Shown in pieces: positions 41,883 to 64,000 of a stretch of 64,000 bases of DNA (position 1 is its first letter; each line of letters starts with the position of its first letter). The DNA is taken from positions 44,488,922-44,552,921 of the forward strand of contig NC_054743.1 of NCBI RefSeq assembly GCF_018143015.1. Reading direction: 5' to 3'. The notes under the pieces were generated by a model that saw only the letters and a list, made by a program, of their open reading frames with translations, ran no database searches and was not told the DNA's origin. Position numbers and translations under genes: made by a program. This stretch comes from Lytechinus variegatus. Lineage: Eukaryota; Echinodermata; Echinoidea; Temnopleuroida; Toxopneustidae.

Positions 41883-44800
41883 TTACGCTTTCTTGTCTCT
41901 GATGTAATGGCCGAAGGTCAGGTCATAGTTCTTGAACTCAGAGTACTGGCGATCTTGGCGGGTGTAGCGGTCAAGGAAAGTCTCCTTCAAGGCTCCATGG
42001 CTTGACCGGCATGCTGCTTGCTGTGGGGTCAGAGAGGGAGAGGGAGAGGAGGGGGGGGGGCAAAGTATAAAGAAATGTGATTTGAATATATAGATGAGGA
42101 AAAGGAGAGACAGGAAGAGAGGCAGAGAGGAGTATGGGAGGGGGAGAGATGCACAGAGGAAAACAGAACAAAACAACACAAATGGCAGAGAAAAGAGACA
42201 AAAATAAAGAGCGAAAGGCATACAAACAGAGATAGAAAAATGAGTGATGAGAGGGGAGAAATAGAGAGAGATGGGGTGGATAGAAGAAACAAAGCAGAGA
42301 TGGATGGATGGATATAGCAAGTAGGATATAGAGAGAGAAAGATGGAGAGAGAAAGGAAGAGACAGAGAGTGACAGGAAGGAAGCAAACAAAAAAGCAAAG
42401 AATTAAGAGAGGGAGAGAGAAAGTGATGAGCATGTTAAATGATCAGAGAGCGATTCTAAAATCTAATTCTTCAAAATAATCATCCTAATATTTCATGTAA
42501 TACAATATGAGACCTACACAATTCAATGACCCCTGGTATTGTTTATATTTTCAAAGAATTTGATTTGACTTTTCATCTGACTTCCCATTTGACATAAAAA
42601 GTCTTTAACATTAAAAAAGATAAATACACTTTCAGATGGCTATAGAAAGTACTTAATAGTGGAATTTATATTTATTGATACAAATCGATATGCAAAATCG
42701 CCACTTAGAAGCCGACACCATTAATCCTTCCTGTCATATTTTGTTCTCTCCAAGGTAGATAAAAAAAAGCCAAGAAGTGAAACTATAAAGAAACCACAGG
42801 GTAGTAATAAGGTCATTTATACTTTAATATTAAATGTATTATCTAGTAGTGGGCAGTGGTGTAATTGGTGAACAATTTAGAATGGGCAATATGGTGTATG
42901 TGTGGAGAAAAATGACCTTTAAAAATTAAATTCAGATGTTTTGACTTCCCATTTGACAAAGGACGTTTTACAACATTAAACAGATAAATACCCTTTCAGA
43001 CGGCTATAGAAAGTACTTAATAGGAATGATTAGTGGAATTAATATCTTGTTGATAAAAATCACAACACAAAATCGCCACTTAGAAGCTGACACCAAGCTG
43101 ACTGGGCAATATGGTGTATGTGAGGATAATAATTACCTTTCAAAAATGAAATTCAGAAGTTTTGATAAGTTTTTATGATATTCAACAAATAGTATTCACC
43201 CTTTTTTCATTTCATTTCCTTTACCCCTTATATTCCCCCTTGTTTATTTTTCTTGATCATGGTATTTTTGTCTTTTTTTTTCAGGGGGGGGGGGTGCTCT
43301 GATTCCTTTATTATGTAAGCCAGTGGTAGTGAGAGAGGAGTTCCTTTGGATATTAATTGTAACTTATTTGTCAGCTTGAATGAAAATGGCTACATAATAT
43401 ATTGATGGTTTATTTTCCATCAAAAATTGTTTCAGAAACCTGCTGATTATTATTTCATTAAAATTCATCCATAAATGAGAAAAAAGCAATGAGCTGCCTG
43501 ACCCTAAGATTTCCTTACTTTTATCTACTATACTCATATAAAAAAAAAAAATAAATAAATAAAGATAACTAAAATTGGCTGATGGCATCATCTATATCGT
43601 AAGTGGACACTCGTGCCTGGCCAATAATAAAACTGAAAAGTTCATTATGGAACAACAATGATTAAAATACAAAGTCTGCAAAAGACAGAACTAAAACAAT
43701 CTCACGTTGCCAGCAGAAATCATTCACACTGCCAAGAGAATGACATAAAGACCATGAATAAAATGAAAAGAAGAAAATACATATCACTTATTACAATGAA
43801 GACTTATTTGATTACTAAACCTTCAATCAGGGCAAAAGAATGAAGTGGAAATTTCTTTCTTTCTTTATTCAGTGATATAGTGACAAATAAATTTCATTTC
43901 ACTGACTATCTGGCAAAAATCAGTGCTTACTGCAACATCATTCACATTAATACCCAGGTAATAATTACCTCATTAGTGAAGAGCGTCATAACAAATTTCC
44001 CAGGCCTGAAGGTAGTGAGAATACGCTCAACGAGGCTACTATACTCCTCCTGCAAAAAGAAAAATAAATAAATAAAAACAATGTATCCTAATTGTCTTAA
44101 AAGTGGCATCAAATAATAATAATAACAACAATAATAATAACAATAATAAAAATAATAATAATGTGCAACATTTATATGCACTAAATACAAATGTTTCTAA
44201 GCGCTGCATAGTATTGTCTCAGCTTTAGCACGGCTACCCTAATTGGATGCTCGAGCATTCAAGGAATTCCTTCCTCACGGGTACCCATTTTCTACACCTG
44301 GGTGGAGAGTGGCGAATGGAGTGCTGTGATTTGATCCTGAACTTTGTGGTTCAAAGTCCAGAGACTTATCCACTGTGTCCCAATACCTCTACATTAATTA
44401 CATTTAACAACTGACAAGTCAATGAAGGAAGTAAGCATATTTTTAAACTTGCATGGCTTGGGTTCTACACAAGGATAATCATGCTATTGAAGTGCCATGA
44501 TTTATTGCCTAATCTGTCAAAGTTTTCACGATGAGAAAACAATCAAGCAGTTAATCATATGGAAAAACACTTAGGATCGTTTAGGGACCCCTGGCTATAA
44601 AGACATAGTGGTATATATACGGTAAACCATGGTTTAGTTAAATCTGGCTTAATTTATAACACTTTGTTATGGAGTTCTAGGTGTCAACCCATTCATCAAT
44701 TAAAAGTCATTCTTATCCTGCTGCAAAAAACTGTAAAAAATAAATAAACTGAGTCATGAACAGGAAAATACATGTACAAAATATCTTATTAAATTTTAAT

Positions 44801-47800
44801 GGAATCTTTGGTATAATATATTAGACAAAAATATGGAACAAATATGAAGTCTAGCATTACATAGAGGTGTGGTTTGAAATTCTAGTTTAGACGACGTTTT
44901 AACCTAGGTTTAATTACAGGAATACCATCCATAAAGTTTGGATTCTCGTGAACAGTTTTAGCCTTATAACTTGTACTACAGGTAGCTATCAAAACAATCC
45001 AACTGCTCATACATGTTATCACTGTTCTTCTTATCTCCACTGGGTAGTTTTTACATACTGGGGCCAGTTTCATAAACCTTGTTATAACAGCAACTTTGCA
45101 ATGACAGTTAAAAGCTACTGAAATGCTTCTATCAGGGTCCAGTATCACAGAGGTTAGCGATAGATTGTACGCTTGATTTTCACTACTAATTGTACATTGT
45201 AGTCAATGTAAACAATCATAGAAAAATGTTATACAATCACTGCTAAGCTTTGTGTTATGGTCCCATGGTTGGCTGATAGTAAATTTGTTATGGAAAAGGT
45301 GTCAGGTGGGTGTTTCATGAAGCTGTTAGTAAGTTACGAGCGACTTTACGAAGGACTGGTGATCAATTCTTAGGAACTCAATCACCACCTCTGAAATTTC
45401 AATGCACATGATTAACTGCAAGATATGATCACCAGTCATTCGTAAAGTCGCTTGTTACTTACAATCAGCTCAGGTTTCACTGTTTAATAGGAGAGAAAAT
45501 GATTTACCATGGAAGCATTGGTCTCAAAGCTGACATAGGAGAATTCCTTTTCTGGTGTAACATGGATAGTGACATAGCCATCCTGAGAAAGACAAAATAA
45601 AAAATATATAAATATAAGTGACGAGCCTAACAACTGCATGGATTACATTGATAATCCCAAAAGATTAAATATACAAATTTAAATAAATTTCTCAATATTA
45701 CATAAAAAGTAGGGACAGTGATTTTCTATCTGCCCAGTAAATTGAATCGAAAGGACCATTTTGTTTCTTTCTTACTTTTCACATGAAATTTCAGAAACAA
45801 ATAAAGACCAATGTCTCTATTAAAAGATGCTTGCTTTGGGGTAAAATATGATGCAAAAAGAATTTTTTGTGAGTACATATTAACAGAAAATTGCATCAAA
45901 GTACAAACAAAATGAGGAATTAAAATTTACATTTAAAGTGTAGATTTAATTAACTGTGTCTCTATATATTATGGATACATGACATCCTTCTTGCTTTATC
46001 TAGAGTATTACAAAAATAGGAAACAGGAGCATTTCATGAAAAGTTTAGTCAGTGAATTTCCCTGACAGATGTTATAAGCTACCGTACTTCAGATCGTTGC
46101 ATCTGATTGGCTGAACTAGTCAATGAAAATCACTGATTTAATTCTTCATGAAAAGCTTCCCTGACATCTCCACAAGATAATACTCATCTATTCAAATTAT
46201 GATTTCCAAAGGGAAGTCCAGGAAAGCAAGGGGTTAAAATCACGAAAAGCATATTTTGTTCTGAGCAAATTGGTAAAAATTCATTTTTCCACTTGAATAT
46301 TTGTTTAACTTCCTGCAGGCCCCACATTACAGGGTTTATGACCTCAATCAAGAGGATCTTGTAAAATTAATAAAGCTGGGAAATGTGCTCAGATTGACTA
46401 TTATATTCTTTGTGTGAATTTCCATTTTTTAAGAAAACAAAGTCTCTCTTGAATCAAATTAAATTTACTTTTTGATATTGTACATGTATAGTCCGCTGCC
46501 CTGAATTTTATCAGCCAAAATATCAGAAATCCATTTAATTACTTCTTAAAATCAAAACTTTGAATTTATTGAATGTAGATTTGAACTAAAGTGAAACCAA
46601 AAACAGGAACTCACCAAACACACTGAATAAAAATATCATATGAACATTCGGCCATTCTATCAAAACTCTATCAAGACTACAATATTCAATAGGTTAACCC
46701 ATTGCCCACTGGAAATGGACTGTCTTTGTACAAAGCCAACAGGAATCACAGAATTCAGAACTAAACAGGTTAACCCATTGCCTACTGGAACCAGGTTCCT
46801 GATCGGAATCAGAGCCTTCAGAGGGGTGTTTCACAAAGCCAATGCACATGTAACTCAACGTGTAATCTGATTGATGTGTATGTGGTAATGTGCATCCCAT
46901 GCACATTATCAGGTGGGTGTTTCATAAAGCTGTCTGTAGGAGCAACTGTAAGAATGACTGGTGAACCTTTCTTACGCTCAAAATAGTCACCAATTAACAT
47001 TTATTGGTCAATATCATTAACCACAAGAAACGATCACCAATCATTCTTGAAGTCACTCTTAACTTGTGATCAGCTTTATGATATGGCCCCCTGGCAATTG
47101 CTTGCGGTGATACGTTACAGACCACACACAACTGCAACTTTAGGGTCACACTGAAATCTTTGTAAAGCACCCCTTCCCCCGGAGTCAAATGGATGAAAAC
47201 AACAAGACAATATGATTAACAAACAGTAAAGATCAGAGACCCGTCATAAGAGTTGCCATTGATTGATCCAATCGATCACAACTATGAACGGCCAGCAACA
47301 TCAACATCTAAAATGTATTCTTATTCAAAATATTCAAGATATGATGTATATTAATACATTCATCATTCTCTTGTAAATTCAGTGTGATTCTCTGTGTTTA
47401 CCAAGGAGATTGTGCAGATTTCCTGCAGAAAAAATTATGGTATGGATGGATTTTATAGAGTTGAGATTGATTGGATTGATCACAACTCTTTGTAAGACGG
47501 AAGCCAAATGTGCTAGAGAGGTGACACTGATTTTGTATCCTGCACAAAGAAACTAACTTCCTTTCATTGGTAATTCTGTCAATCTTTGTTTTTGAGGAAT
47601 CAACAAAGCACTAGGGTTTGCCAGATGATACTCACATTTTGTAGCAGTCCATTCATTGAGTAGCCGCATGGATCAAACACAAAGCCGTCAATCATACAAT
47701 CTGGTAAAAGATCAGCTATTCCACTGTCCTGTGTTATAAAACAAAAATGGGCAAAAATTATATGTCATGAGTATGGTATAGGCTGAACTCTTTAGCCCGT

Positions 47801-50800
47801 ATTCTGAAGTCAGGTTTAAGTCAGACCACGGTCTAACTCTGTGCTTAAATTATGGGGAGCCAAAAATTCTGTTTATATTGTATATTTCTTTTGGTTACTG
47901 TTTTACTTCCTTTTGGTTTTAAAAAGAAGAAAAATACTTCAATTATCATTCCGAGCAATTACGAACAATTTGGGTGTCACATGAGTTAGTAAATTGAATG
48001 TGTAATTGTTAGTGATTTGTGCCCCCAATTGGCTCTCTATAGTTAAACTATAACTCTAAACCAGGGTTTAATTTAAACCCGAGTTCAGAATAAGGGCCTT
48101 TGTGTTGTATTTCCCCCTCAAATTCTGGGATGTAATGACAGCAAACATGTAGCTTTAGCCATGTACCCTATTTTACAATACGATACAACGATTGGGACAC
48201 GCTGCATCAAAATTCCTATTATGGTAGCTTTACCATTCTATTGAAACTTCTAGAATATTGTGATTGACTGTTGAGCATTGTAACCATGGATATCTACCAT
48301 AATAATTAATGCAACAGGAGCCTAGAAAAAGATAGTCTATTTCATTCTGCCTTTCATGTATTAAGTTAATTCAATAAACCATAAAATAACACAAGGCAAA
48401 AGCGATTTTGTGTCTCGCCCAGGTATGAAAATAACAAGAAATATCGTGATTCGTGAGGGCATGCAACAGAATTGTATCAAAACTTCATTGTAATATAACT
48501 AAGATGGAATAACACTTGCCTTAAGAGCCTTGCACGTAAATTTTAATGTTGACCTGAAAATTATTCTTTGACCTTATCATGTGACCTCCGACTGCAGCAT
48601 AACATGCAGGTCCCCCAAGTCAATCTACCATCCAAGTTTGGTTGAAAAGCACCTTACGGTTGCGGAGTAAGGTAAGGTTGACCTGAAAATGACCTTTGAC
48701 CTTATCGTGTGACCTCCGACTACAGCATAACATGCAGGTCCCCCAAGTCCATCTACCATCCAAGTTTGGTTGAAAAGCACCTTACGGTTGCGGAGTTAGG
48801 TAAGGTTGACCTGAAAATGACCTTTGACCTTATCATGTGACCTCCGACTGCAGCATAACATGCAGGTCCCCCAAGTCCATCTACCATCCAAGTTTGGTTG
48901 AAAAGCACCATACGGTTGCTGAGTTAGGTAAGGTTGACCTGAAAATGACCTTTGACCTTATTGTGTGACCTCCAACTGCAGCATAACATGCAGGTCCCCC
49001 AAGTCCATCCACCATCCAAGTTTGGTTGAAAAGTGACTTACGGTTGCAGAGTTAGGTGTCATAAGAGAGTCTTCAATGTAAACTTTAACGTTGACCTGAA
49101 AATGACCTTTGACCTTACCATGTGACCTCCGACTACAGCCTAACATGCAGGTCCCCAAGTCCATCTACCACCCAAGTTTGGTTGAAAAGCGACCTACGGT
49201 TGCGGAGTTAGGTGTCTTCAGAGAGTCTTGCATGTAAACTTTAACGTTGACCTGAAAATGACCTTTGACCTTACCATGTGACCTCTAACTGCAGCATAAC
49301 ATGCAGGTCCCCCAAGTCCATCTACCATCCAAGTTTAATTGAAAAGCGACTTACGGTTGTGGAGTTATGTGTCATTAGATTTGTGATGGACGGACGGACG
49401 ACAGACATTTGGATCCCTAAGTCTCGCCTTCACCTCTGGTGGGCGAGACAAAAACTGTACAAAGAAATCTGTTAAATCAATCTCTTAGGTCCACAGATAT
49501 CTGCCTAAGGAGAAATTCACCTCTATTTGAAGCACCAGCACCACTTTAGATGAATATTTTATGAACCAAATATTAATATGACAAGGTGTGAGAAAGAAGT
49601 ACACAACTTTAGGGGAAATTAGACCATCTTGGCATTAGACTAAATGTCATATTTTGAGAATGAGACCAAATGAGGGTTGCATCAAATGGCGATTGGACCA
49701 AGTTGATCGTGGACAAAGTAGGTATGGCAATGATGATGTAAAAGATGATCTGAGAATTAGACCATCTGCTAGTAGACCAAGTGAATTCAGATCTCATAAA
49801 AAGCTTGCTCATTTGAATAGATTCAATCTTACCTTAGTGACTGCTTCTGACTTGCGTCCCTTGGTGTTCTGGAAGTGGGCCATGATTTCATCATCTAGCT
49901 CGGTCATGAGGATGTAATGTAATGGTCAAGGATATTGACCACTGACCCTTTTCTATCAGAACAATACATGTACAGTCAATCCTATTGTTACATAGAATCC
50001 CAAAGAGAGTGTTTAGAGCAAAATTTAGAAGTTTTGGAGCTTCATTTAAAGATCAAAAGCCAAATTCTGATTTTATGCATAAATTAGCATAGTTAAAGAT
50101 AAATGCCAGTAGTTGCAGTAAACACCGATTTCATGAGAAAGTCTGTAAAACCAGGCTTAATTGTCAGTATATCATCGAGGATCCAGATCTGGTACAGTTA
50201 CATAAACTGAACTTTGTGAAATCTTGAAATCTACGCTGAAAAATGTTCACACTGAAGATCACCAACACAGATAGGCACATGTGGGACAGTGTATTATTAT
50301 TGCTGGAATAAAGACCCGACGGAAGTGACCGAATCCGCTCTTATTTTGCTTATTTCTCAGCGATTACACAATTTCTTCCAGAATCCATTGGCACATATTT
50401 TTTATTCATACAAACAGACACTTGGGTGGTTATTATATTAGATTCTGTAAAAAGTCATTTTGAGATCGTTACCAATATTGGCATTTATCTTTAATCAGGC
50501 CATAATAAAACAAATTACTATAATTACATGTAATGTTGTACAATTTGGTACATCACTGTGTAAATAAAGTTGATTGTGACATGCATATCAGGGGAGAGGT
50601 GTTCTTAGGCTATTGCAATTTAAAATAAAAAGCTACTAAAGGCTGAAGCCTGCCTATTTTAACTTGAGTTTAGTGCATGGTACCATTCCAATTTACAGTT
50701 CTTATATGGAGGAAATAATGAGCGTATTTGATTGAATTTTGTGATTTCAAATGAAATCTATTTTGATTGATAGCCCAATATAAATCACTTCAAAAGAATA

Positions 50801-53800
50801 GGGAATGGGCTATAAATTTGTTGGTGGATTTCTGTTATCTGAATCACTAAACTTTGTCAGATGTTTGCTCAGAGGACCTTTTAGTTAAGAGGAATGCAAA
50901 CAGTTCTGAGAGACTGTGAGATATCAAAAAATTGAAATAAAATTTTCACAAAGAATAGACAGTTGGGAAAAAAATCCTACAGCCGAAACATTTCTTTTCC
51001 CGACTAGAATTTTAAATGATACTCAAGTATACTTCGCATTATCATCCATGAGTGCTTTCGACAAGAATAAAAGAAAATTTGTCATTAAAAAAATTCCGAA
51101 GGATATTTCCAGAGTCTGATCAGGTTGTTCAATACTGGAGTTGTCCAATGTGTAAAGATACCTGAAAAATAAATATGATAATAGAGAATGTCTTATTATT
51201 GGTTGACATGTTTGATTTTCTGAAAAACAAATTTTGGAACAGTATTGCATGGTTTACAGGTATTGTTTACAAATATGAGGTAGAGTAGATTAAAACTGTA
51301 AGTCTTTCATCTTACATTGCATGGGAGTTAAATGGGGTGTTTGAGTGAAAACGAGATTGGTATTTTGAGAAAGACTTGCGAGAGCTACTATGGTGAGCGC
51401 GATGTGTGGTGTGAAGCTGATGGAAAGGAAGAAGACTGAGCTTTTGATGAAGTTATTGGAAGAGACGGATCAGATGTTGAATACAAAGGCGTACATTGGT
51501 ATGGGCATGTGTTCAGGAGGGATATTAAATGTTTTGAGATGTGCGCTTGAGTTTGAGGTGGCTGGTCAGAGGGGAAGGGGTGAGGGAGACCGAAGCAGAT
51601 ATAGAAGAAGCAACTGTTCGAGCTTGGTGTTTCAGCCATGTTTAGCAGCCTTTTTTTAAGCTCTCAACACCAACAATGTACTTGAAATCCCCCAATGTAA
51701 CAAACAATTTGAATTTCTTTCATAAAGAGAACAAACAATGAATAAAATTGTCGAGTGAAAAATCGAAATAGATGTACCCAAAACTTTAACAAGTGGAATG
51801 CCTCTGGCCGTCTCACCTGCATCACGCGGTTCAATATAGCAGCAGTGCTGACTTTGAATACTACTCTAACTCGCACAAGATGTTCAGTGATACATGGTTA
51901 CTCTTATGTCCACTTTTTATGAACTAGACCAATAAAATTACAGAGATATGATGGTTATTCAACAAAAAACCCCAACATGGCCAAAGTTCATTGACCTTAC
52001 ATGACCTTTGACCTTGATCATGTGACCTGAAACTCGAACAGGATGTTCAGTGATACTTGATTACTCTTATGTACAAGTTTCATGAATCAGATCCATAAAC
52101 TTTTAAAGTTATGATGGTAATTCAACAGATACACCCAATTTGGCCAAAGTTCATTGACCTTTGACCTTGGTCATGTGACCTGAAACGCGCACAGGATGTT
52201 CAGTGATACTTGATTACTCTAATGTCAAGTTTAATGAACTAGACCAATAAACTTTCAAAGTTATGATGGTAATTCAACAGATACCCCCCGATTCGACCAA
52301 AGTTCATTGACCCTAAATGACCTTTGACTTTAATCATGAGACCTGAAACTTGCACAAAATTTTCAGTGATGCTTGATTACTATTATGTCCAAGTTTCATG
52401 AATCAGATCCATAAACTTTCAAAGTTAAGATGGGAATTCAACAGATATCCCCAATTCGGCCAAAATTCATTGACCCTAAATGACCTTTGACCTTGGTCAT
52501 GTGACATGAAACTCTAATAGGATGTTCAGTAATACTTGATTAACCTTATGGCCAAGTTTTATTAACTAGGTCCATATACTTTCTAAGTTATGACATCATT
52601 TAAAAAACTTAACCTCAGGTTAAGATTTGATGTTGACGCCGCCGCCGCCGTCGGAAAAGCGGCGCCTATAGTCTCACTTTGCTTCGCAGGTGAGACAAAA
52701 ACAAATAACTCTTTCAAGAAATAAAAAGTTGATTGGGCATAAAAAGACATTAATCTTTTTGTTTGTTTTGTTTTGCTTTTAGCTTTTTTTTTTTTTGGGG
52801 GGGGTCCTTTTTGACAAAACAGGTGCAAATGGTGAACCATAGAGGTAACATGGGTTAACATTTTCTTTCCAGAAAACATAAACTTTTTTTCCTCCCAGAA
52901 ATCTTTATTTTCAAGTCTAGTCTGTTGTTACGGGCTGACTCCACTCTAACAAAGGACACAAAACAAAGTATCAGGCCAATACTAAAACCACACTCACTAA
53001 CTGAAACCTTTTATCAATGTATATCATGAGATAAATAGTGAGTAGGCATGAGTGAGAGATTTGGCATAAGGTGAAAGAAAGATGCTCAATCCAACGAGAC
53101 ATAGCCGAGTTGGATAGAGTGTCTCTTTCGCTGAATGTGGAATGTTGCATCGTTGTGCAGATGAGATTATGCAGTATTTGTATTGTACAATGCCTCGCAA
53201 GTTAGCGAAAATATGAATAATCAATATTTTTCCTATGTTAATTTATGAAAGTAAGAATAACTGAAAGCCAATAGTAAGGTTCTACTTACCAACAATCCCC
53301 ATTCATCCTCCCCAAGACATAGGCAGCGCCACCTGCAAGAGGAAAGAAACATAAAAAAAATCCATATCTTATTGTTCGAAATAGAGGTCTCAAATGGAAA
53401 TACTCAGAAAATTTTGCCCAATTGATCATGGGCTCAGCTGCCACTGCGCAGTGTGCGATTGACGTAGCTCTATACAGATATTATCAAACAATCAATAACT
53501 ATGATATAACTGGCTGTCATAATCACCCGGGCCAGGTCTCACAAAGAGTTATGATTGATTCAATCTAATCATCCTAAACTATGATGAATGTAATACATGT
53601 AATACAGAGATTAATACAGCAATTGGTCAATTCTTCTTTGAATGATTTCAATGTATCCGCTCATTTTTCTCTCAAATCACCCTTAACTGTTTCTAAAAAG
53701 TAAATAAGATAGCTTTGTTCACCATTCACGAGTTAGGAAAGAGCATGACAAACATTCATTATAAGGAAAATTTCGACATTTTTTACTTTCGATAATTTGG

Positions 53801-56800
53801 CACAGAGTTAAACCATGGTCAAAGTTAAACCTGACTTCAGAATACAGGGCCCTGTATTCATTGTAGATGTTGCTGATAGCTTTCCATAGTTATGATTGAG
53901 CATATTAATCGCAAGTACATGGATTGGGAACTTACGATCAAAAATTGAATCGAGGTACTTGACCTCATCCTCAAAGCTCTTATAGAGGGAGTGCTGAAGA
54001 TCCGGTCGCATGAAATTCTTCCTGGAGTAAAATATATCCTGATGAAACAGAAGAAAAAAAAGGGCAGTTGGCAATCGGAATCCTACTTTGTCTACATCTA
54101 GTTTGCCTGTACATAATGATTTGATCTCCATCATAATCATCATCAACACAATCACTAACACTATCAGTATCATCATCACCAGCATCATCATCATCATCAC
54201 CACCATCACTATCACCATCATCATCATTATCATCATCATCATTATCATCATCACTATCACCATCATCAACATCATCATCACCATCACCATCATCATCACC
54301 ATCATCATCACTATCATCATCACCATCATCTCCATCAATATCACCATCATCTCCATCACTATCACCATCATCATCATCACCATCATAATCATAACCATCA
54401 CTATCATCATCATCATTATTATCATCATCATCATCATCACTATCATCATCACCATCATCACCACCATCATCTTCATCATGATAATCCTCATTTTCATCAT
54501 CGTTCATCATATTCATCATTTTTATTTACTTACAACTACTTTGAAGTTGCAGTATTTTTCAGCCAAGGTAATAAGAGGCTCAAGACTAGCTAGAATGGTG
54601 GTCATGCCGCAAGTCTTTAGGATCAAGCGTCTCTTGCTGATGAAAAGGCTACTTTCACTGAGAAAATACAATTAGAATAATATAGACAGGGGGTAATCAT
54701 TTGAGTGTTCATCTGGACATGATGCATCTTTAATATCTTCACAGTACTTTTTTCATATTTCATTGTACAGTATGTAGTAGTTTTCCAAACGTCTTTTCAA
54801 ATAAATTCTTTGTGTACAACAATGTTTGAAGTACAAATCTCTACATACAGTGGACATTTAAATGCACAACTCATGCCATTTAAGCCCATTTTCAAAATGT
54901 TTTGATACCCCCCCCCCCCCCAGTGCACTGTCATTTCTGAATTCATTAATATGAATGTGCATGCCTAAAAACAGTTGAGATACACAATAGAAGATGTAGA
55001 ATTAAATCGTAATTTCTTGGATGAACTTCGTGACTTTACAAGAAAAAATAATTAGGAATGGATACCAAATCAAACTAAAATACCTGTAAATTATAACATA
55101 AAGATGGCTAGAAACACTAAAAATGCTTTTTGTGCTTATAGAAACACTAAAAAGTAAAAACTAATTTTTTTTTACATGTAGCAAACATAATACATATCAG
55201 TTGAATTGTTCATCTCCAGCAGGGGTAAAAATATGTATGATATGTGAGAGTAACGCACCAGTAGCTGTGCTATATGAATTGACCTCTTAAAACTTAGTAG
55301 CTTACTTGTGCATCAAATCAAATCGAAATAGAATATTTAATGTATCAAGTTTAATAATCAAGAATTAGTGATTCTTCATTGAATTTGGACAACTAGAGCC
55401 AACTGTGAAAAATTGTTTCTTTTCCCATTTTCTTGGCAATTCCCTCTGAAGGCCTCTCTTTAAGAGGAGATTACATATAAAATATGCTTGAGTGCTCACA
55501 TTTACTGTATTTCTGTTCAACGTAAATGCTTGTGCACTCATACATATTTCTATACAATATAATGCTTACCTGCTCACATCTCACAGGATCATTTATACCA
55601 TGGTCACATTTACGCTACGGTGGCCGTATGGTGAGTAGAAAACAGCAGTTTTAACATTTTTTGTACCAGCTATATATAGGTGGTTTGAATAAAAATGATT
55701 AACCTGCTGTTTTCGGCTGATCGAGGTATCAGTATACATGTATGGCACTAGTTAGACAGTGTTCCATTCAACCAATTCACAATCATCGAACAATATTTGA
55801 ATATCAGGGTGTCTGAAGGGTGACACAACATTCTATCCTGCGACAATAGCTCCCAGCTTCATTTCGTCTAGGATGAGGGTTATTAACAAGTTATGTTGCA
55901 ATCAGGTTTTAATATATATGAGGATTAGGGGTTTTGTAGATTGAGGGTAGGTATCAAAATACAGGGTTGAAGTTCTAATAGTTATTCAATTAGAGCCTGG
56001 AATTGATAGCCGACCAACCGCTGCCGGGTCAGTTGTCATGGAATCGTCTGGAGAGAAACCCTTTACAATGGACCCAGATTCTACTATTCTATTCTGAATA
56101 AAGTAAAAGGAATTTGGAACTCAGCAATACCATTCCCGTATATTAAGTACTGTATATAAGCATAAAGTTTATAAAAAAACACCTAAAAACTACACCATAC
56201 CATTCTGAAAATGTATTTAGAAAGAACATGTACATCGTATGCTTTAATAATAATTTATAATAATCTGCTTTTATATAGCGCATAATAAATGTATCAGAAC
56301 AATGTTACTACATGTAAGTGCTTTACAGATATATTATCACCCCCGTCATCGGTTCCTGGCGTGCCTGCACACAATGTACATGTATGCACTTTCTCCACTC
56401 CCTGGAGAGCATTCCAACATTATGCGTCACCGCCAAGCAGCAACGATGACAGTGTTCTCTCCGTTTCAAACAATAAGTCCAGATGATCAGATTTATTTCT
56501 AATTGTTATTTACATGAAGTTCAGATATCATGTAAGCAAAGTTTTGGGAAGAAAACCTCATTCAATTTGTTGCCATGGTAACCAAATTCAGCCTTGCAGA
56601 TGTTAACTGATAGCTCAAAAAAATCCTGAAAACCCAGGCCGGGGGTCCAGGGCCCCGCCCAGGGCCCCTGGCGGGGTCAAGGGCGAAGCCCCCTGAAGCT
56701 GGAACGTTTTCTTATTCTTTAGAGGGCTGAAATCATTAATCTACAGTAGTACATAACAAATAATCAATGACATAATAAACTTCATATCATAGGCAAGAAA

Positions 56801-59800
56801 GGTGCTAAAAAAAAAAAAATCATGTAACCCGTACTCATTACGGTACGGTTAACCTGCTGTGGGTTAATATGCTGCGGCCAATGGGTGCGACTCGGGACGG
56901 GTGTATGTAGCAGCTGGGGTCCCTTTTTCACTCACTGTACTCATCAACAAGACAATCCTATACTATTGAAAATCCATAAATCACAATTTCTATCAAAATG
57001 ATGGATAGTTCACACATATGAATTGATGAATACGCACCAGAGAACACATATTTCATGGTAGCAAATAGGTTTTCAGCTGAAAATACAGGAAAATTTGCAG
57101 TTTTCATTTTGTGGTAGTGAGTGTAGCAGCTACATGTTTTTTCTGCTTTTTGGCTGATCCAGACTTTGTCATGTTCTTCCTTTTGAGGGTTTTTGGCAGC
57201 ATGACCAAGTTTCTAAGTTCTGCTGCTTTCGTTTGGACCGATTTCTTTGCAGCTTGTTCTGGTGGTACGTCAGAGCCTGGCTTGGTCTTGGAGGCCTTCT
57301 TGAATTTTGACCAGGAGGTCTGCAAGTGATAACATAATGCAGTATCTACTGGAGAATGGAGCACATTGGGTCGGTGAAAGAGTTCCAAGCTGGATTTTCC
57401 CTCAGACTGCAGATGGAACTTCACTGTCTGAACAGCACTGAAAGTTTTTATCTCTAGTCGGTTAGTCTTTTGGTTTATGTAATTGTTCATAAGGCTAAAG
57501 TGCTGCTCTACTACAGGCGCTGTGATGATGGACAAGCATGCCTTGACTACTTTCCCCAACATGGGATACCCATCTACAACAGCAGCCCACCAGTGATCTG
57601 CACGAACTGCCTTTTCATCAACAAAAGCAGGTGGCAACATAGGATCACTATTAATCCTTAACACTTCATGTATGTATGCATCCTTGTCTTCGTCACTTGA
57701 TATCACTGTAGGAAAGTGATGAACTAACTTCTTCATTGTGTTTGTACATTCAGATCTGCCAGAGCACACAGCGATTGGATCAACAGCAGCTAACCTCTGC
57801 AGTGTTACATTCACCAAGGGAAGTTTATTCACCAAGTACTTTCCACTGTCAATATAGGCTGTTTGAAGTTTTTCCAGAAATTGAGACTTTGAGTGCTTTT
57901 TCTTAGCAAGAAGCTTCTTAGCCTTTGATCCCATGTACATGTTGCTCAAATCTTCCAAGTTCTCCTTTGCATCAATCTGTAACGATTTGATTTGTTGTGC
58001 TGTGATGTTCTTGATCTTTTCAGTCTTCACAAAACATGCCAAAAAGTGGGTGGCTAACTCCATATGCTCCTCGTGTGCTCTGTGCACCATTGGTGCTCTC
58101 TGTTCGAAAGTTATGATGAAAGATTTGAACATGGGAAGTAGGGACAGATACAAGTGGATATGGATGAAAGTATCTATTCTTGTGTAGAAGATCCGTTCAA
58201 CGATGCGTTTTTTCCTCTTTCTTCCATCTTCTGTGAGGTTTTTTTCCCTACAGACTTTGATAATTTTGGAAAGCTTGCTCAGGTTACTTGTAGAAACACC
58301 TTCCAGAATCTCATCGAGGACAGATTGGTAGACTTCTCTCTCATTCCGGGCAACCATGCTGAATACGTAACAGTCAAGGCATCTAGCATTTCCTCACTGG
58401 GTTGTAAGACATCAAGAACTTACAGCCATCTGTGTGGTACTCTTTGTTTTGGGATGTGGAAGCTGCATTGAAGAATGTTACAGATTTCCTCTAAGTATTG
58501 CCGTAGATCAGTAGAAAACTTGAACTCGGTGTGCAAGTCATCAACCAGTCTCTCTACAACATTGTTGAAGTGACTGCAAAACCTACGGGAGGCATTGTGT
58601 ATATGATGACATACATCACCATCGATGTCAAGCAAATGGTTGGCATGATGTTGACGCAGGAGGGTTTCAAACCCTCCTTTTTTCCCTCTCATGTAGTTTG
58701 CGGAATCACATAGCACAGAAATCAAATAGGACAGAGGAATGTTGTCATCTTTCAACAGTTTTACTATTGAATCACTTATAGTTTTGGCACTGACAATGGT
58801 AAGAGTCAATGAACTGTAGTGCTGAACAATTGTCTCTCCTTTTTCTGGGGAGAAATAGGCTACCATAACACTTCGAACTTTCTTGTTATTATTACTTGTT
58901 GCTTCATCAAGATTCAAGGAAAAGCAGTTGGTCTGCATCTGATAGACAAGATGCTTCCGGGCAACAGCCCCAATGCCATGGACCATTTTATATGTAGCGG
59001 AAGCCCTCCCCAGTTGTACACCATCAAGGGCCATTTTGTCCTGGGACATTTCTTTGGCATAGGCAACAAGATGTGGAGCGTCGCTCAACTTGTACTTGTG
59101 TTCCGCCATGAAGGCTAAAGTCCGTCCTTCAGCATGTGATATCCTATCTTTCAGGTGCACAAAGGGTTTGGGAGTCTTGCTGTAAAGGAATAAATAAGAA
59201 ATTCAATCAGCAAAAACACAAGAATATAATACATGATAACTTCAAAATTAAAATAATATAAATCTTCATAATATTAATGCACATGTATGTGCACTACCAT
59301 ACTATAATTTTTATTTAAATCCGAGCTAAGGTCAATTCAAAATGCTATCATCACATGATGGTAATTCACGATTGAATCTGAATGCTAATGACAATCTGTT
59401 AGTGATTATTGTCAATTTGTTAGTATAAATGAAAAATCTAAAAAAGCAAAATTCCTCATTGAATATCAAACTAAATTGTTTATAAAGATCAATGTAACAG
59501 GGTGGGATGAATTTGGAATTATGATTAAAAAAAAAAAAACAATGGAGAAATTTTAACTTTGGCCTCTGTCATACAGATTACAGTAATTTCATAACATGAT
59601 GGTTTAAAAGATGAAAATGTACTCTAACTCAAGAGAAAAAAAAGACATCACGCACATCCAGTGGCAGTCGTAGCAAGTGAAGGCGCTCCACATACAGCAT
59701 CCATAAACCAGGCGGTGAAGTACATGATGATGTAGAAGTGGGCCGTTTCAGGAGTAGCAACTTCTGAGGTATTAGTAAAAATAATCCAAACATGTTGATG

Positions 59801-62800
59801 GGTTTATCCAGTTAAATAAATAACAGCATTGTCATGCTAAACATACAAAAACTTTTTATCATGCAAACAAAAAAATAAAGAAAGTAAACAATTAAGTACA
59901 AAAACATTTTCTCATGAAAAAAAATCTGGAAAAAATTAATTTTAGAAAGACAGTAAAAAATTATACTCACGTTTGCTTACAAGTTTCAGTGGCAGGATGA
60001 ACATTGGGAGGTGCCCCATACGGTATCCCTGAACCAAGTGATGAGCATGAGGTACTGGGTGCTGCGGCTGCAGTTTCTGGTGTGGGGACAGCACATTCTT
60101 TCTGAGCTGCAGCCTGATTAAAATGAGTTGAGTTTGAGCGTACAGAGAAAAATTAATTTCCTATTACTAAGTACACAGCAAATCTGAGTTTCTTCAACTA
60201 TAATACATGTACTGACAAATGTATGAGATGGCAGATTTAGTATTTATGTGGCTAATAAAAGAAGTTCTAAATTTGTGATAGCCTCAGAAAAACAGGTATG
60301 TAAGGCACTAAACTGTAAAAAGGCTCTTGATAAGCATGTGCCATCAGCTGAACCCATAATATATAAACATATTTATATGAACGAGAATATGTTAAAAAAA
60401 AAATAATGATATAAAACAGTAAGAGGGGGAAAACTGTACGAAAAATGCTTACAATACTTGAAGTATATGACTAATCACCATACAATAAAGACCAGATTTA
60501 AAAGAAGTTATGCAATTTAACTTGTGAATGTTGGACCAACCTGAAAAACAGAGGGCAACAGTTGAGCTCCCTTTCTTGCTCCACGCCATTGTCTGTGGCC
60601 TTTTGATGTTGCATGACCTCTCAGTGCTTTGAATCCTGCACGAAAGATAGATCACTTATAGGTGTAAGTTATACCGTATAACATTTTTGTTGGAACTTCG
60701 TAACGAATACATGTAGGCCGAACATTACACATCATTCTGAAACAGTGGAACCAAAAGAAAGTCTAGGGTCGAGAGTCTACTATGCCTCCATGGCCTCAGT
60801 CTATCGGCGACTTAATTTTTAAAGTTAATGATAATCTACAACTCGCTTGGACTCTAGGCTCTAGCTACTAATGTCCACGAAACATATAATTTTTGTGCTT
60901 GTTCTCTATGGGAACAAACACAAATAATGAAGAAAAAAAATCAAAGCCTAAAAAGGCCAAGTTATACCAATTACAGTCTACGAAGTCTAACGACTCTAGC
61001 CTCTACTCTTGAATTTGATACATGTTATTTAGCTCTAACTTAATACATTTGAATCCAAAGAAAACTGGGGAAAATAAGTGAATCACTGTCTTAAAAAAAA
61101 TCAGTTTTGCACGACTTTACAAAAATTAAGTTTTGCATGATTTTACAGGGATTTTAAAAATTCACTTTAAATTTCAAAGCCGAAAGAACACCCACCTGAT
61201 GCACCGTAATTGATCTGCTTTCCATTACACCACATGCAAATCGCCTTGCCCGACTGCCTTATCTTTCTGATGTATTCTGATAGGTAATCCCCATTCTCAT
61301 CTTTGATCTCGAGCCAGGACCATCGCCATTTGTTTTTTACTCCTTCTTCTAAATCTCTGACACATCCTTCTTCTTCTCTCTCGATGATTTCAGACATTTG
61401 TAAATGGTGACTGGAAATCAGGGTCGAAATGCAGTCCACGCCGATTAGCTGAAATCCCGCGGCAGACAACCAATCACTCACGCAGCAGCAGGCAATTGCA
61501 GCCACACCGGGCCGTGCTTCGAGCGGTTCTACCGGGCGATCGCCCGACTGGGATAGCGCTGACACCCGTATCCCTGCAGGGTATAGGGCGGCGTTTGCAA
61601 CTGCTACAATGTATTGCTCGCGCGTACCGTGCAAGTACAGTACCAGCTAAACTTCATGCTGCGCACAACGCTAATAATTTTCCGTCTGCGCAAATTGGCC
61701 ATCCAAAATTGAAATTGCGCTCTCCGTAGCGAACTCCGTGACAAGATTTGGAGGGGAAATTTTTACGGATTTCACTTTGACAATCGATTTTTTTTCCGAA
61801 ATATTTTTCAGCAAAGGAAAAAATCCTGAATTCCTGAAAAATCCGGAAAATTAGCAACTCTGCAAATTAATAAATAATAATTTTACAATTTGAGTTTTAA
61901 ATAAAGGATGATAAAAACAGTAAAATCATGGGCCTGAAATCGCAAAAAGATTTTGAAAATTGGTTGAACCCATGGTTTATGCAGATTTTGTATAAGTTAC
62001 ACTTAACTTCCCATGCAATAAATGTCCAATACTACTGATGCCCGATTTTGTTACACTGTGCCAAATTAATGCCTGTTGCCATGGTGAAGCACACTATTTT
62101 ATTCAAAGGTGCACTGTTTTGAAGAGTGGACTCATGAATAAAATAGTGGATGATGGGGTTCCTATTGTAATAATATCACAAACATTGTATGCTTGACACA
62201 GCAAAAAAAAACCTCACAAAAACACCATCGAGTTACATTCATAAATATAAATATCGGCGTGCAGGAAAAGGGCCCAATATTTGAAGCATTCTACTTTAGG
62301 GCTGGGGGTGGGATTACTCCAATTTCAACGAACATGTACAGGCCGTACATGAAACAAATATTTATTGATATCAATTGCTGTTATCATTGGCATACTTGTC
62401 ATCAAAATAAGAATGATCATTACCTTAGTAACAAATTCAACATTTACAATATAATAGGGCTGCATTTGTGCAACTTCAAGTGCGAGAATTACAAACATAT
62501 AAATCAAAATATTTCAACAGAAATATTCTCTCCTGTCCATTGACATTATTCCCCATAGCTTACTGAACCTAACCTATAAAATGTGTCACTTATGACAACA
62601 TGCCGGCCGGCAAAGATTATATTAACTGTGATCTTACAGAAGTGTAGGCCTCAAATATCTTTTTTTCAAGCTCACCTCAATACATAGGCATGCTGCTCAT
62701 CTCGCTCTGAAAAGCTGACGATCTCACACTGCACTTTGACAAGCATTTCAGCAATCTCATCTCTGAAAAGCAAAGGCAAATTAGATGTAGACTGAATTAG

Positions 62801-63807
62801 ATATTGAGTGCTGCTGCTAACTACAACAACTACTAAGTACTTCCACTACAACTACATAATGGCAGGCTTATTATAAACGGCCGTGTTAGAGGCACACCAC
62901 TTACAGGACTCTTTATAACAAGCCCAATGGCCGTACTTTGATGAAGATGTTGATGGTAATGCCATGATGATGATGATGAAGATGACGACGATGATGAAGA
63001 TAATGATAAATCTGACAATAATTTGTATAAAATAACTAATCAAAATATTGAAACAAAAACTACCATAATAACAATATCATTTATTTTCTACAACAGCTCT
63101 AAGCAACACTAGGGTCCATATTTTGAAGTCGGGTTTAACTTAAAGCTTTAAAGTTGTGGTTTAAGTATGGGAAGCCAAAAGTATCAACATTTTTATCAGG
63201 TTGTAGGCCTTTGTTTCCTATGTTAACTGCATTCTTTCATGATTCATCGATGGTGAAGACAATAATATATTATACTTCCTAGACAATAATCAATGATTTG
63301 AGAGCCAAATGAGCTGAAGTATGATATCTCTACTGTTAGTGATTTATGTAACAATTGGCTATCCATACTTAAACCACAACTTTAAACCAGAGTTTAAGTT
63401 AAACCTGCTATCAGAATACGGGCCTAGGAGGCTAGCTAAATTGCTAACCCATATTGCTGGCCAAAATTTTCAAAATTCTTAGGGGCTGCCCTCTACATCT
63501 TCTGCACAATAGCTTCATGTATTAAAACACACTCTAGTTTGTACTGTTGTAGTGGTGAGAAGTGAACGGAACAGAGACATAAAAACTTTGGTCTAATATT
63601 AAACTGTATACCCGACGAACATGTATGATGACAAAAATTATGTTCATACCTTGGAATGACTCGGAGGTCATCTGGCAACTTAGGCTTTTTAACCTCTCCA
63701 TTTTCCAGGGTGATGGTGTCAAACCATAGTTCTAGAAGCTTCTCTGTGCCTTCGTAGTGTGTCAGCTTACTGCCCTCATTGTTGACCTTATCACTGCCCT
63801 GATCCAT
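41883..63807 (-). CDS. AMD1: S-adenosylmethionine decarboxylase proenzyme, 11 coding exons
   Basis: Exons in coding order: 63807-63650, 62762-62676, 54657-54534, 54038-53936, 53332-53290, 51161-51107, 49913-49833, 47728-47636, 45582-45508, 44049-43969, 42020-41883. They total 1038 nt, or 345 residues (human 334). The enzyme decarboxylates S-adenosylmethionine to give the aminopropyl donor for spermidine and spermine, with a pyruvoyl group made by self-cleavage. The cleavage site is SES at 82-84 (E83/S84, human E67/S68). K96 and C98 (human K80, C82), S241 in CGYSMNG (S229), H255 (H243) and E268 (E256) are present, as are E19, E22, E26 and the putrescine-site D186 and E190 of QPDQTLE (D174, E178). 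YSRKNFMRP and [11 protein letters not shown] match the human enzyme. All introns are GT-AG except intron 6, which is AT-AC. It looks fully functional. Confidence 0.97.
42025..42430. repeat. GA-rich tract directly upstream of AMD1 exon 11
   Basis: About 400 bp of G/A-rich sequence on the plus strand (AGAGAGAGA, GGAGAGGGAG phrases) forms a long pyrimidine tract on the AMD1 strand ending at the exon 11 acceptor (42021). Ser/Leu/Pro-rich frames over it are artefacts. Confidence 0.9.
44090..44400 (-). mobile_element. tRNA-derived SINE, family 2 copy 2, with (ATT)n tail
   Basis: The head in reverse contains CAGTGGATAAGTCTCTGGAC and GGTTCAGGATCAAATC-like B-box spacing. The body matches the copy at 38560. 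The 3' tail is an AAT-type microsatellite at about 44111-44163. It lies in AMD1 intron 9. Confidence 0.75.
45305..45472. mobile_element. MITE in AMD1 intron 9
   Basis: GGTGGGTGTTTCATGAAGCT and AGTAAGTTACGAGCGACTT at the left are inverted at the right (AAGTCGCTTGTTACTTAC, then AGCT). The inner motif GACTGGTGATCA is repeated inverted. Confidence 0.75.
46912..47091. mobile_element. MITE in AMD1 intron 8, related to the 45305 element
   Basis: The left end GGTGGGTGTTTCATAAAGCT is inverted at the right as AGCTTTATGATATGGCCCCC. It shares the inner GACTGGTGA motif. Confidence 0.75.
47239..47510. mobile_element. MITE in AMD1 intron 8
   Basis: CCCGTCATAAGAGTTG..ATTGATTGATCCAATCGATCAC is matched in reverse by GATTGATTGGATTGATCAC..AACTCTTTGTAAGACGG. 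Confidence 0.6.
47795..48098. mobile_element. MITE with GCCCGTATTCTGAAGTC ends, copy 1
   Basis: The left end GCCCGTATTCTGAAGTCAGG and the right end GAGTTCAGAATAAGGGCC are inverted, with inner GTTTAA-rich arms. It lies in AMD1 intron 7. Confidence 0.8.
48406..49454. mobile_element. Inverted-repeat element with six tandem units, most bearing a DR1 site (AMD1 intron 7)
   Basis: The element opens TTTTGTCTCGCCCA and closes with its reverse, GGGCGAGACAAAA. Inside are six units starting TTGACCTGAAAA at 48548, 48678, 48806, 48934, 49091 and 49247. Spacing is 128 bp for the middle ones and about 156 bp where an extra 29-bp piece (GAGAGTCTT..) is added. Units 2-6 each hold a perfect TGACCTTTGACCT. The element is non-coding. 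Confidence 0.85.
49620..49800. repeat. Phrase repeat related to the block at 33236
   Basis: Degenerate copies of ATTAGACCAAATG and GACTAAATGTCAT in one orientation. It lies in AMD1 intron 7 next to exon 7. Confidence 0.6.
49914..51106 (-). other. AMD1: AT-AC, U12-type intron 6 of AMD1
   Basis: Exon 6 ends CTGGAA at 51107 and the intron opens ATATCCTT, the exact U12 AT-AC donor core. The next exon, ATCCTCATG (I L M), begins at 49913 right after AC. TCCTTGAC at 49932-49925 matches the U12 branch site, with the branch A at 49926, 12 nt before the intron end. No AG lies where a U2 acceptor would be needed, and the reading frame has a stop just upstream. The join restores LEILMTELD, matching human LEILMSELD. 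Confidence 0.9.
51807..52698. mobile_element. Inverted-repeat element with four tandem DR1-bearing units (AMD1 intron 5)
   Basis: The left end GTCTCACCTGC (51809) is inverted at the right as GCAGGTGAGACAAAAA. Units of about 140-165 bp repeat GATGTTCAGTGATACTTGAT, AAACTTTCAAAGTTATGATG and CCAAAGTTCATTGACC. TGACCTTTGACCT is perfect in three units and altered in one. The GC-rich end GACGCCGCCGCCGCCG precedes the right arm. Confidence 0.85.
53020..53230. mobile_element. Hairpin-bearing repeat, copy 2, diverged (AMD1 intron 5)
   Basis: It matches the 36950 element through GTGAAAGAAAGATGCTC, an imperfect hairpin, TTGTACAATGCCTCGCAA and AGCGAAAATATGAA. Confidence 0.7.
54130..54525. repeat. (ATC)n microsatellite filling AMD1 intron 3
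   Basis: About 390 bp of ATC/ACC/ATT triplets (GAT on the gene strand) make up most of the 495-bp intron and stop 9 bp short of the exon 3 donor. Met- and Asp-rich frames here are artefacts. Confidence 0.95.
55596..55728. mobile_element. MITE related to 24991, copy 2, right arm decayed
   Basis: TACCATGGTCACATTT, ACGGTGGCCGTA and ATATATAGGTGGTTTGAAT match the first copy. TTA precedes the left end. The right arm is shortened to about 25 bp ending GAGGTA. Confidence 0.75.
56250..56480 (+). mobile_element. SINE-like fragment with TTTATATAGCGC motif
   Basis: AATAATAATTTATAATAATC followed by GCTTTTATATAGCGC and AAGTGCTTTACAGATA is the tail-side consensus of a common invertebrate SINE group. No tRNA head was seen. 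Confidence 0.4.
57104..61397 (-). mobile_element. hAT-superfamily transposase gene with N-terminal zinc finger, 4 coding exons, nested in AMD1 intron 2
   Basis: Exons 61397-61196, 60635-60541, 60113-59971 and 59179-57104 join with GT-AG borders and matching phases. Exon 1 starts [10 protein letters not shown] and ends in a CMWC pair; exon 2 supplies HATSKGH, together a C2-H2 (BED-like) finger, CxxC..HxxxxxH. Exon 3 is an Ala/Pro/Ser linker. Exon 4 holds a hAT catalytic core: D in [10 protein letters not shown] in [15 protein letters not shown], an HRWL motif, and near the C-terminus [13 protein letters not shown], the region of the hAT glutamate and dimerisation fold, then a basic tail. Length is about 835 residues. 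Damage: an in-frame TAA at 58422-58420 right after HRWL, and a one-base frame change near 58355. No 8-bp target duplication or terminal repeats could be fixed by eye. It runs in the AMD1 direction. Confidence 0.82.
59655..59762 (-). pseudogene. Diverged second copy of the hAT linker exon
   Basis: Downstream of linker exon 3 in the hAT gene lies a stretch related to it. Both contain a PETA-coding segment, then a related run ending in a GTATGGGGC- or GTATGTGGAGC-like stretch. The frames are no longer consistent with the flanking exons, and exon 3 joins exon 4 directly in phase, so this copy appears unused. Confidence 0.4.
63112..63425. mobile_element. MITE with GTATTCTGAAGTC-type ends, copy 2 (AMD1 intron 1)
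   Basis: GGGTCCATATTTTGAAGTC..GGTTTAACTTAAA at the left is inverted at the right (TTTAAGTTAAACC..ATCAGAATACGGGCC). Same family as 47795. A half copy lies near 53805-53860. Confidence 0.78.
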
Positions 63808-64000
63808 GTTTGCATGGTCAAAGGAGCCACCAGCCTTTCAGTGGATTCTGCTCCCGTCTACATGAAAATCTTGGACACAATTCAAAATTCAAATTATTTA
63901 CTTTTACTGTCTGTAAAAACACAGAATTTCGCCTCTGCTGGCCCCTAATCATTCATCACACAATCACAGACAAAAAGAAAAGTATTAAACATATCAGATA
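63808..64000 (-). promoter_or_regulatory. AMD1: AMD1 5' leader with two upstream ATGs
   Basis: Reading towards the AMD1 start, ATGTAG at 63863-63858 is a start codon followed at once by a stop. A second ATG at 63815, with A at -3, lies 8 nt before the main ATG and out of frame with it; it runs to a TGA inside exon 1. The main ATG at 63807 has A at -3 and G at +4. Mammalian AMD1 is controlled by a short upstream frame (MAGDIS); that peptide is not visible here. The promoter probably lies beyond the window, and a leader intron could remove these ATGs. Confidence 0.5.

Follow-up and report, generated by a model that had tools for sequence, protein, structure and literature searches.

A predicted minor-spliceosome AT-AC intron in the AMD1 gene of Lytechinus variegatus

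A 64,000-nucleotide stretch of the Lytechinus variegatus genome (the window; contig NC_054743.1, forward-strand positions 44,488,922 to 44,552,921) carries on its minus strand a gene for S-adenosylmethionine decarboxylase, AMD1, whose sixth coding intron begins with AT and ends with AC. Minor introns, including those of the U12-type AT-AC kind, are known in animals, and the locus raises the question of which spliceosome removes this intron and what the AMD1 protein would owe to it. Judged from its sequence, intron 6 is almost certainly an ordinary U12-type (minor-spliceosome) intron of the AT-AC subtype. We make this assignment because the AT-AC borders are exact, no GT-AG or GC-AG intron in the stretch tested can substitute for it, and all four minor small nuclear RNA (snRNA) families are present in the genome. 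PMC10639083 gives 0.5% of introns as a bound for minor introns in nearly every genome previously examined, and according to it AT-AC introns make up about 26% of the minor introns in human.

RESULTS

The AMD1 coding region spans 41883..63807 on the minus strand (positions without a contig label are those of the window). Its 11 coding exons, placed by splice sites and homology, join into a coding sequence of 1038 nucleotides including the stop codon, an open frame for 345 amino acids. Residues 17-341 align to residues 6-327 of the proenzyme 1msv_A (E 7.2e-99), which we take to be the human AMD1 proenzyme chain, and the alignment covers the proenzyme cleavage site, with the beta chain running to residue 83 and the alpha chain starting at residue 85. 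The family PF01536 also matches at the AMD1 loci of this genome. Nine of the ten coding introns are GT-AG, and intron 6 is the exception.

Intron 6 (49914..51106, minus strand) is 1193 nucleotides long and lies in phase 0 between codons 190 and 191. It separates exon 6 (51107..51161, minus strand; 55 nucleotides), whose last codon, GAA, encodes E190, from exon 7 (49833..49913, minus strand; 81 nucleotides), which begins ATCCTCATG (I L M) at 49913 and is followed by a U2-type donor, GTAAGA. Exon 6 ends on the minus strand with CAGACTCTGGAA, and the intron opens with ATATCCTTCGGA and closes with AATATCCTTGACCATTACATTAC, its terminal letters being ATCCTTGACCATTACATTAC. With splice sites marked by a slash, the two junctions are GAA/ATATCCTTC and TCCTTGACCATTACATTAC/ATC. 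Shifting the border across the AT common to both sides brings out no GT-AG pair by inspection. A first-pass annotation of this DNA had put an AT-AC intron in AMD1 at 49914..51106, behind the equivalent of human E178. The gene model and the 1msv_A alignment agree with that placement to the base; the alignment has no gap at the exon 6/7 junction, and E190 matches E178 when residues are counted by eye along it, with the aspartate four residues earlier matching D174. Human E178 and D174 are presumably putrescine-binding residues.

U12-type introns have the donor consensus [AG]TATCCTTT, in its AT-AC form ATATCCTTT, and the branch-site consensus TTCCTTRAC, with the branch point about 8 to 21 nucleotides from the 3' end. 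The 5' splice site of intron 6, ATATCCTTC (51098..51106, minus strand), departs from [AG]TATCCTTT at one position and matches ATATCCTTT at 8/9. The branch-site motif, ATCCTTGAC (49925..49933, minus strand), likewise has one mismatch to its nine-letter consensus. Its branch A, at 49926, lies 12 nucleotides from the intron end, within the usual range and at the distance first proposed, and the motif holds an in-frame TGA. The 3' splice site is TAC (49914..49916, minus strand). The other nine AMD1 introns have four to six donor mismatches (of nine) and at least three mismatches to the branch motif, and they end in CAG.

Neither signal is rare in the window when taken alone: the donor ATATCCTT is found 3 times against 3.75 expected, and the branch motif with a following YAC is found once against 0.82 expected. 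With at most one mismatch, the donor occurs at 50 of 127,982 positions and the branch motif, at the right distance, at 546 of 127,920. On the assumption of independence, the joint chance of donor and branch at a protein-fixed junction is about 1.7e-6, a figure for a single junction that is uncorrected for the ten introns.

Introns with AT-AC ends that are of the U2 type, and thus removed by the major spliceosome, exist in other animals, and their donors resemble ATAAGT. It is very improbable that intron 6 is one of them: its donor is ATATCCTT, a U12-type branch motif stands 12 nucleotides from its end, and the U1 5' end is calculated to form no duplex with the donor (+1.4 kcal/mol, versus -5.3 to -10.7 kcal/mol at the nine GT introns). 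The snRNA genes for U12-type removal are present. A scan of the genome (869,567,369 bases in 33 contigs) gave Rfam matches above the cut-off for U12 (5), U6atac (1), U11 (6), and U4atac (3), and their first 60 bases, compared by eye with the known snRNA sequences, seem undamaged. Duplex energies for the snRNAs were also tried as an independent test of the sites and did not discriminate, except for U1.

Intron 6 could be replaced only if a conventional pair of sites nearby yielded the same protein. We combined the 21 GT or GC donors in exon 6 and the adjoining 300 nucleotides with the 20 AG acceptors in the 300 nucleotides before exon 7 and in exon 7 itself, giving 420 pairs. The reading frame is kept by 14 of these, with products of 311 to 363 residues, none being the 345-residue protein, and the best donor among the 14 scores 5/9. 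A GT-AG or GC-AG intron at this place is therefore ruled out within the stretch tested (0/420 pairs restore the protein), and within it the original statement that the intron has no usable AG also stands.

A second AMD1 gene lies in inverted orientation at 26.59-26.61 Mb of the same contig (C4), about 18 Mb away; the locus match runs from 38230-64000 of the window to C4:26590682-26615000. Two near-identical inverted copies on one contig mean that the assembly may in part be an unmerged haplotype, and the second gene may be either that or a recent duplication. They also give some ground for suspecting that the AT-AC ends are those of a damaged GT-AG intron, produced by assembly error or belonging to a pseudogene. 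We consider this extremely improbable, since both copies have an open 345-codon frame, differ at 7/1038 coding bases (three residues), and carry identical intron 6 signals, and since donor and branch would coincide at such a junction with the small chance calculated above. Intron 6 is 99.66% identical between the copies over aligned bases, and nine of the ten introns, which were compared, are 93 to 99.7% identical over aligned bases. ODC, U11, and U4atac matches are likewise paired, with about 0.8 to 1.7 Mb between the members of a pair.

The consequences of failed splicing were worked out in silico. Retention of intron 6 would give 190 normal and 27 intron-coded residues before a stop, a product of 217 amino acids that loses everything past human E178. 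Skipping exons 6 and 7 together shifts the frame, with a stop after residue 175, and skipping exon 6 alone gives a stop after residue 171. It had been suggested that failed splicing would cut the enzyme between its two halves. The predicted truncation agrees in part with this; the AMD1 fold consists of two similar halves.

Spermine synthase (SMS) is encoded on the same contig at C4 50.624-50.675 Mb, where the match to 3c6k_A has an E value of 1.5e-19 for one exon and, with the C-terminal half joined, of 8.7e-80. Five C-terminal introns were seen from both sides. One of them (C4:50624592-50632831) is an AT-AC intron in phase 0 after a Glu codon, GTGGAA/ATATCCTTT...CCTTGACCTTTCACCTCAC/ATAGATCAG, with the next exon starting at 50632832 and with two mismatches in its branch motif. 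The last intron (C4:50668974-50674574) is a GT-AG intron of U12 type, GAAAT/GTATCCTTT...TTCCTTGAC...CAG/GTGGG, which ends TTCCTTGACAGACATTTCTCTTTCAG at 50674574 ahead of the exon sequence GTGGGTATTC. Once the introns are taken out, the exons join into an open frame whose alignment to the solved spermine synthase is gapless at both U12-type junctions. These signals, the open joined frame, and the gapless alignment lead us to assign SMS two U12-type introns, one with AT-AC ends and the other with GT-AG ends. At C4 50627371, the SMS exon end with ATATCCTTT recurs as a second, degenerate copy.

The donor pattern [AG]TATC[CT]TT was sought at other genes of polyamine metabolism. By eye, none was found at exon ends in spermidine synthase (SRM; 5 junctions) or in one ODC gene (8 junctions, some not base-exact), and three MAT matches have no such pattern within 100 bases. 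A first count gave 3 minor introns among 26 (Poisson 0.0003 at a rate of 0.5%), or 2 among 16 without AMD1 (0.003). A recount without AMD1, over about 18 junctions (5 in SMS, 5 in SRM, and 8 in ODC), gave about 0.004; it leaves out MAT, a second ODC-like locus at C17 16.73-16.76 Mb, and a pair of ODC matches at C17 18.45 Mb. We give this enrichment little weight because the genes were chosen post hoc and minor introns favor old genes. At C14:23214001-23244000, the gene holds several decayed tandem repeats of one spermidine synthase exon, along with two repeats whose frame is open.

Several further features of the AMD1 gene were recorded. An ATG 8 nucleotides upstream of the start codon begins a frame of 17 codons, which runs across the main start (63762-63815, minus strand) and is identical in the second copy; a simple pattern for a MAGDIS-like upstream frame had no match over 10.4 kb. 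Within intron 2, the segment 56588-61863 is unmatched at that place in the second copy, and its minus strand has open frames 429 and 260 amino acids long. It is possibly a mobile element, and Pfam returned no match for it. Intron 3 contains a long CATCAT array (54129-54519), and introns 7 and 5 contain tandem repeats of about 128/156 and 163 bp (48544-49379 and 51868-52593).

DISCUSSION

Some observations weigh against a U12-type assignment for intron 6, or lend it no help where help might have been had. For the combined U11 and U6atac duplex, 117/1184 intron positions and 379/4000 random 9-mers had energies equal to or better than that of the donor. With U11 alone, introns 2 and 4 have better-scoring donors than intron 6. 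At the branch site, 445/4000 random stretches were equal or better in U12 duplex energy, and introns 4, 8, and 9 outscore intron 6. For U6atac alone, intron 6 scores best of the ten AMD1 introns, in the same calculation that proved non-discriminating for U11 plus U6atac and for U12. A retrocopy that might have proved the junction was not found: a query of exons 4-8 gave 10 matches, all to single exons, 5 in each AMD1 gene. At 99.66% intron identity, the second copy is unfit as a test of conservation or selection. Strict dependence on the intron is also weakened by skips that keep the frame, namely of exon 7 (318 amino acids), exons 4-6 (278), and exons 4-7 (251), each with loss of conserved parts. 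Finally, intron 6 is in phase 0, a minority phase that accounts for 22% of minor introns on average (PMC10639083).

Reading of the donor by U11 and then by U6atac, together with pairing of U12 to the branch site, is the established mechanism for the U12-type class. At intron 6, U11 and then U6atac would read ATATCCTT, U12 would pair with TCCTTGAC, and the splice from exon 6 to exon 7 would fall between E190 and I191. Splicing of intron 6 by the minor spliceosome is what we infer from the sequence signals. Full-length AMD1 in Lytechinus variegatus should then depend on minor splicing, since none of the GT-AG or GC-AG pairs in the stretch tested gives the protein back, retention truncates it, and joint skipping of exons 6 and 7 breaks the frame.

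A further proposal, which adds to the U12-type assignment and is compatible with it, is that minor splicing regulates AMD1: slow or limited removal of intron 6 would set the AMD1 protein level, the U12-type introns of SMS would contribute, and polyamine output would track minor-spliceosome activity. The truncated 217-residue retention product and the lack of a nearby conventional substitute are consistent with this, as are the two U12-type introns of SMS and the absence of such donors at the junctions inspected in SRM and ODC and within 100 bases of the MAT matches. Speaking against it, the genes are few and were chosen post hoc, and PMC10639083 largely ascribes the functional biases of minor-intron genes to gene age and favors neutral processes. 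We regard such regulation as unlikely.

AMD1 makes the decarboxylated S-adenosylmethionine that SMS uses to form spermine. With one U12-type intron in AMD1 and two in SMS, both genes would depend on minor splicing, and the spermine branch might be set as a unit by minor-spliceosome activity, a suggestion we consider unlikely. The SMS introns do make a link to the polyamine pathway somewhat more worth testing. The literature searched yielded no report that AMD1 or spermine synthase undergoes minor splicing, which is weak evidence that none exists, as most subscription papers lie outside its coverage. If RNA confirms the class of the AMD1 and SMS introns, these would be concrete genes by which a minor-spliceosome defect might lower polyamines, and retention is easily measured. 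If the introns are merely retained history, the two genes would be one further pair of minor-intron genes.

Compared with known systems, intron 6 resembles U12-type AT-AC introns in its terminal dinucleotides, its near-consensus ATATCCTT, the TCCTTRAC motif near its end, the lack of a U1-like donor, and a genome that holds all four minor snRNA families. No signal sets it apart from that class, and it differs from most minor introns in lying in phase 0. With U2-type AT-AC introns it shares the terminal dinucleotides, whereas in donor and branch site it follows the U12 type. The protein is homologous to human AMD1 across residues 17-341, E190 corresponding to E178. Like intron 6, the AT-AC intron of SMS is in phase 0 and follows a Glu codon. 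It interrupts an unrelated protein at an unrelated position.

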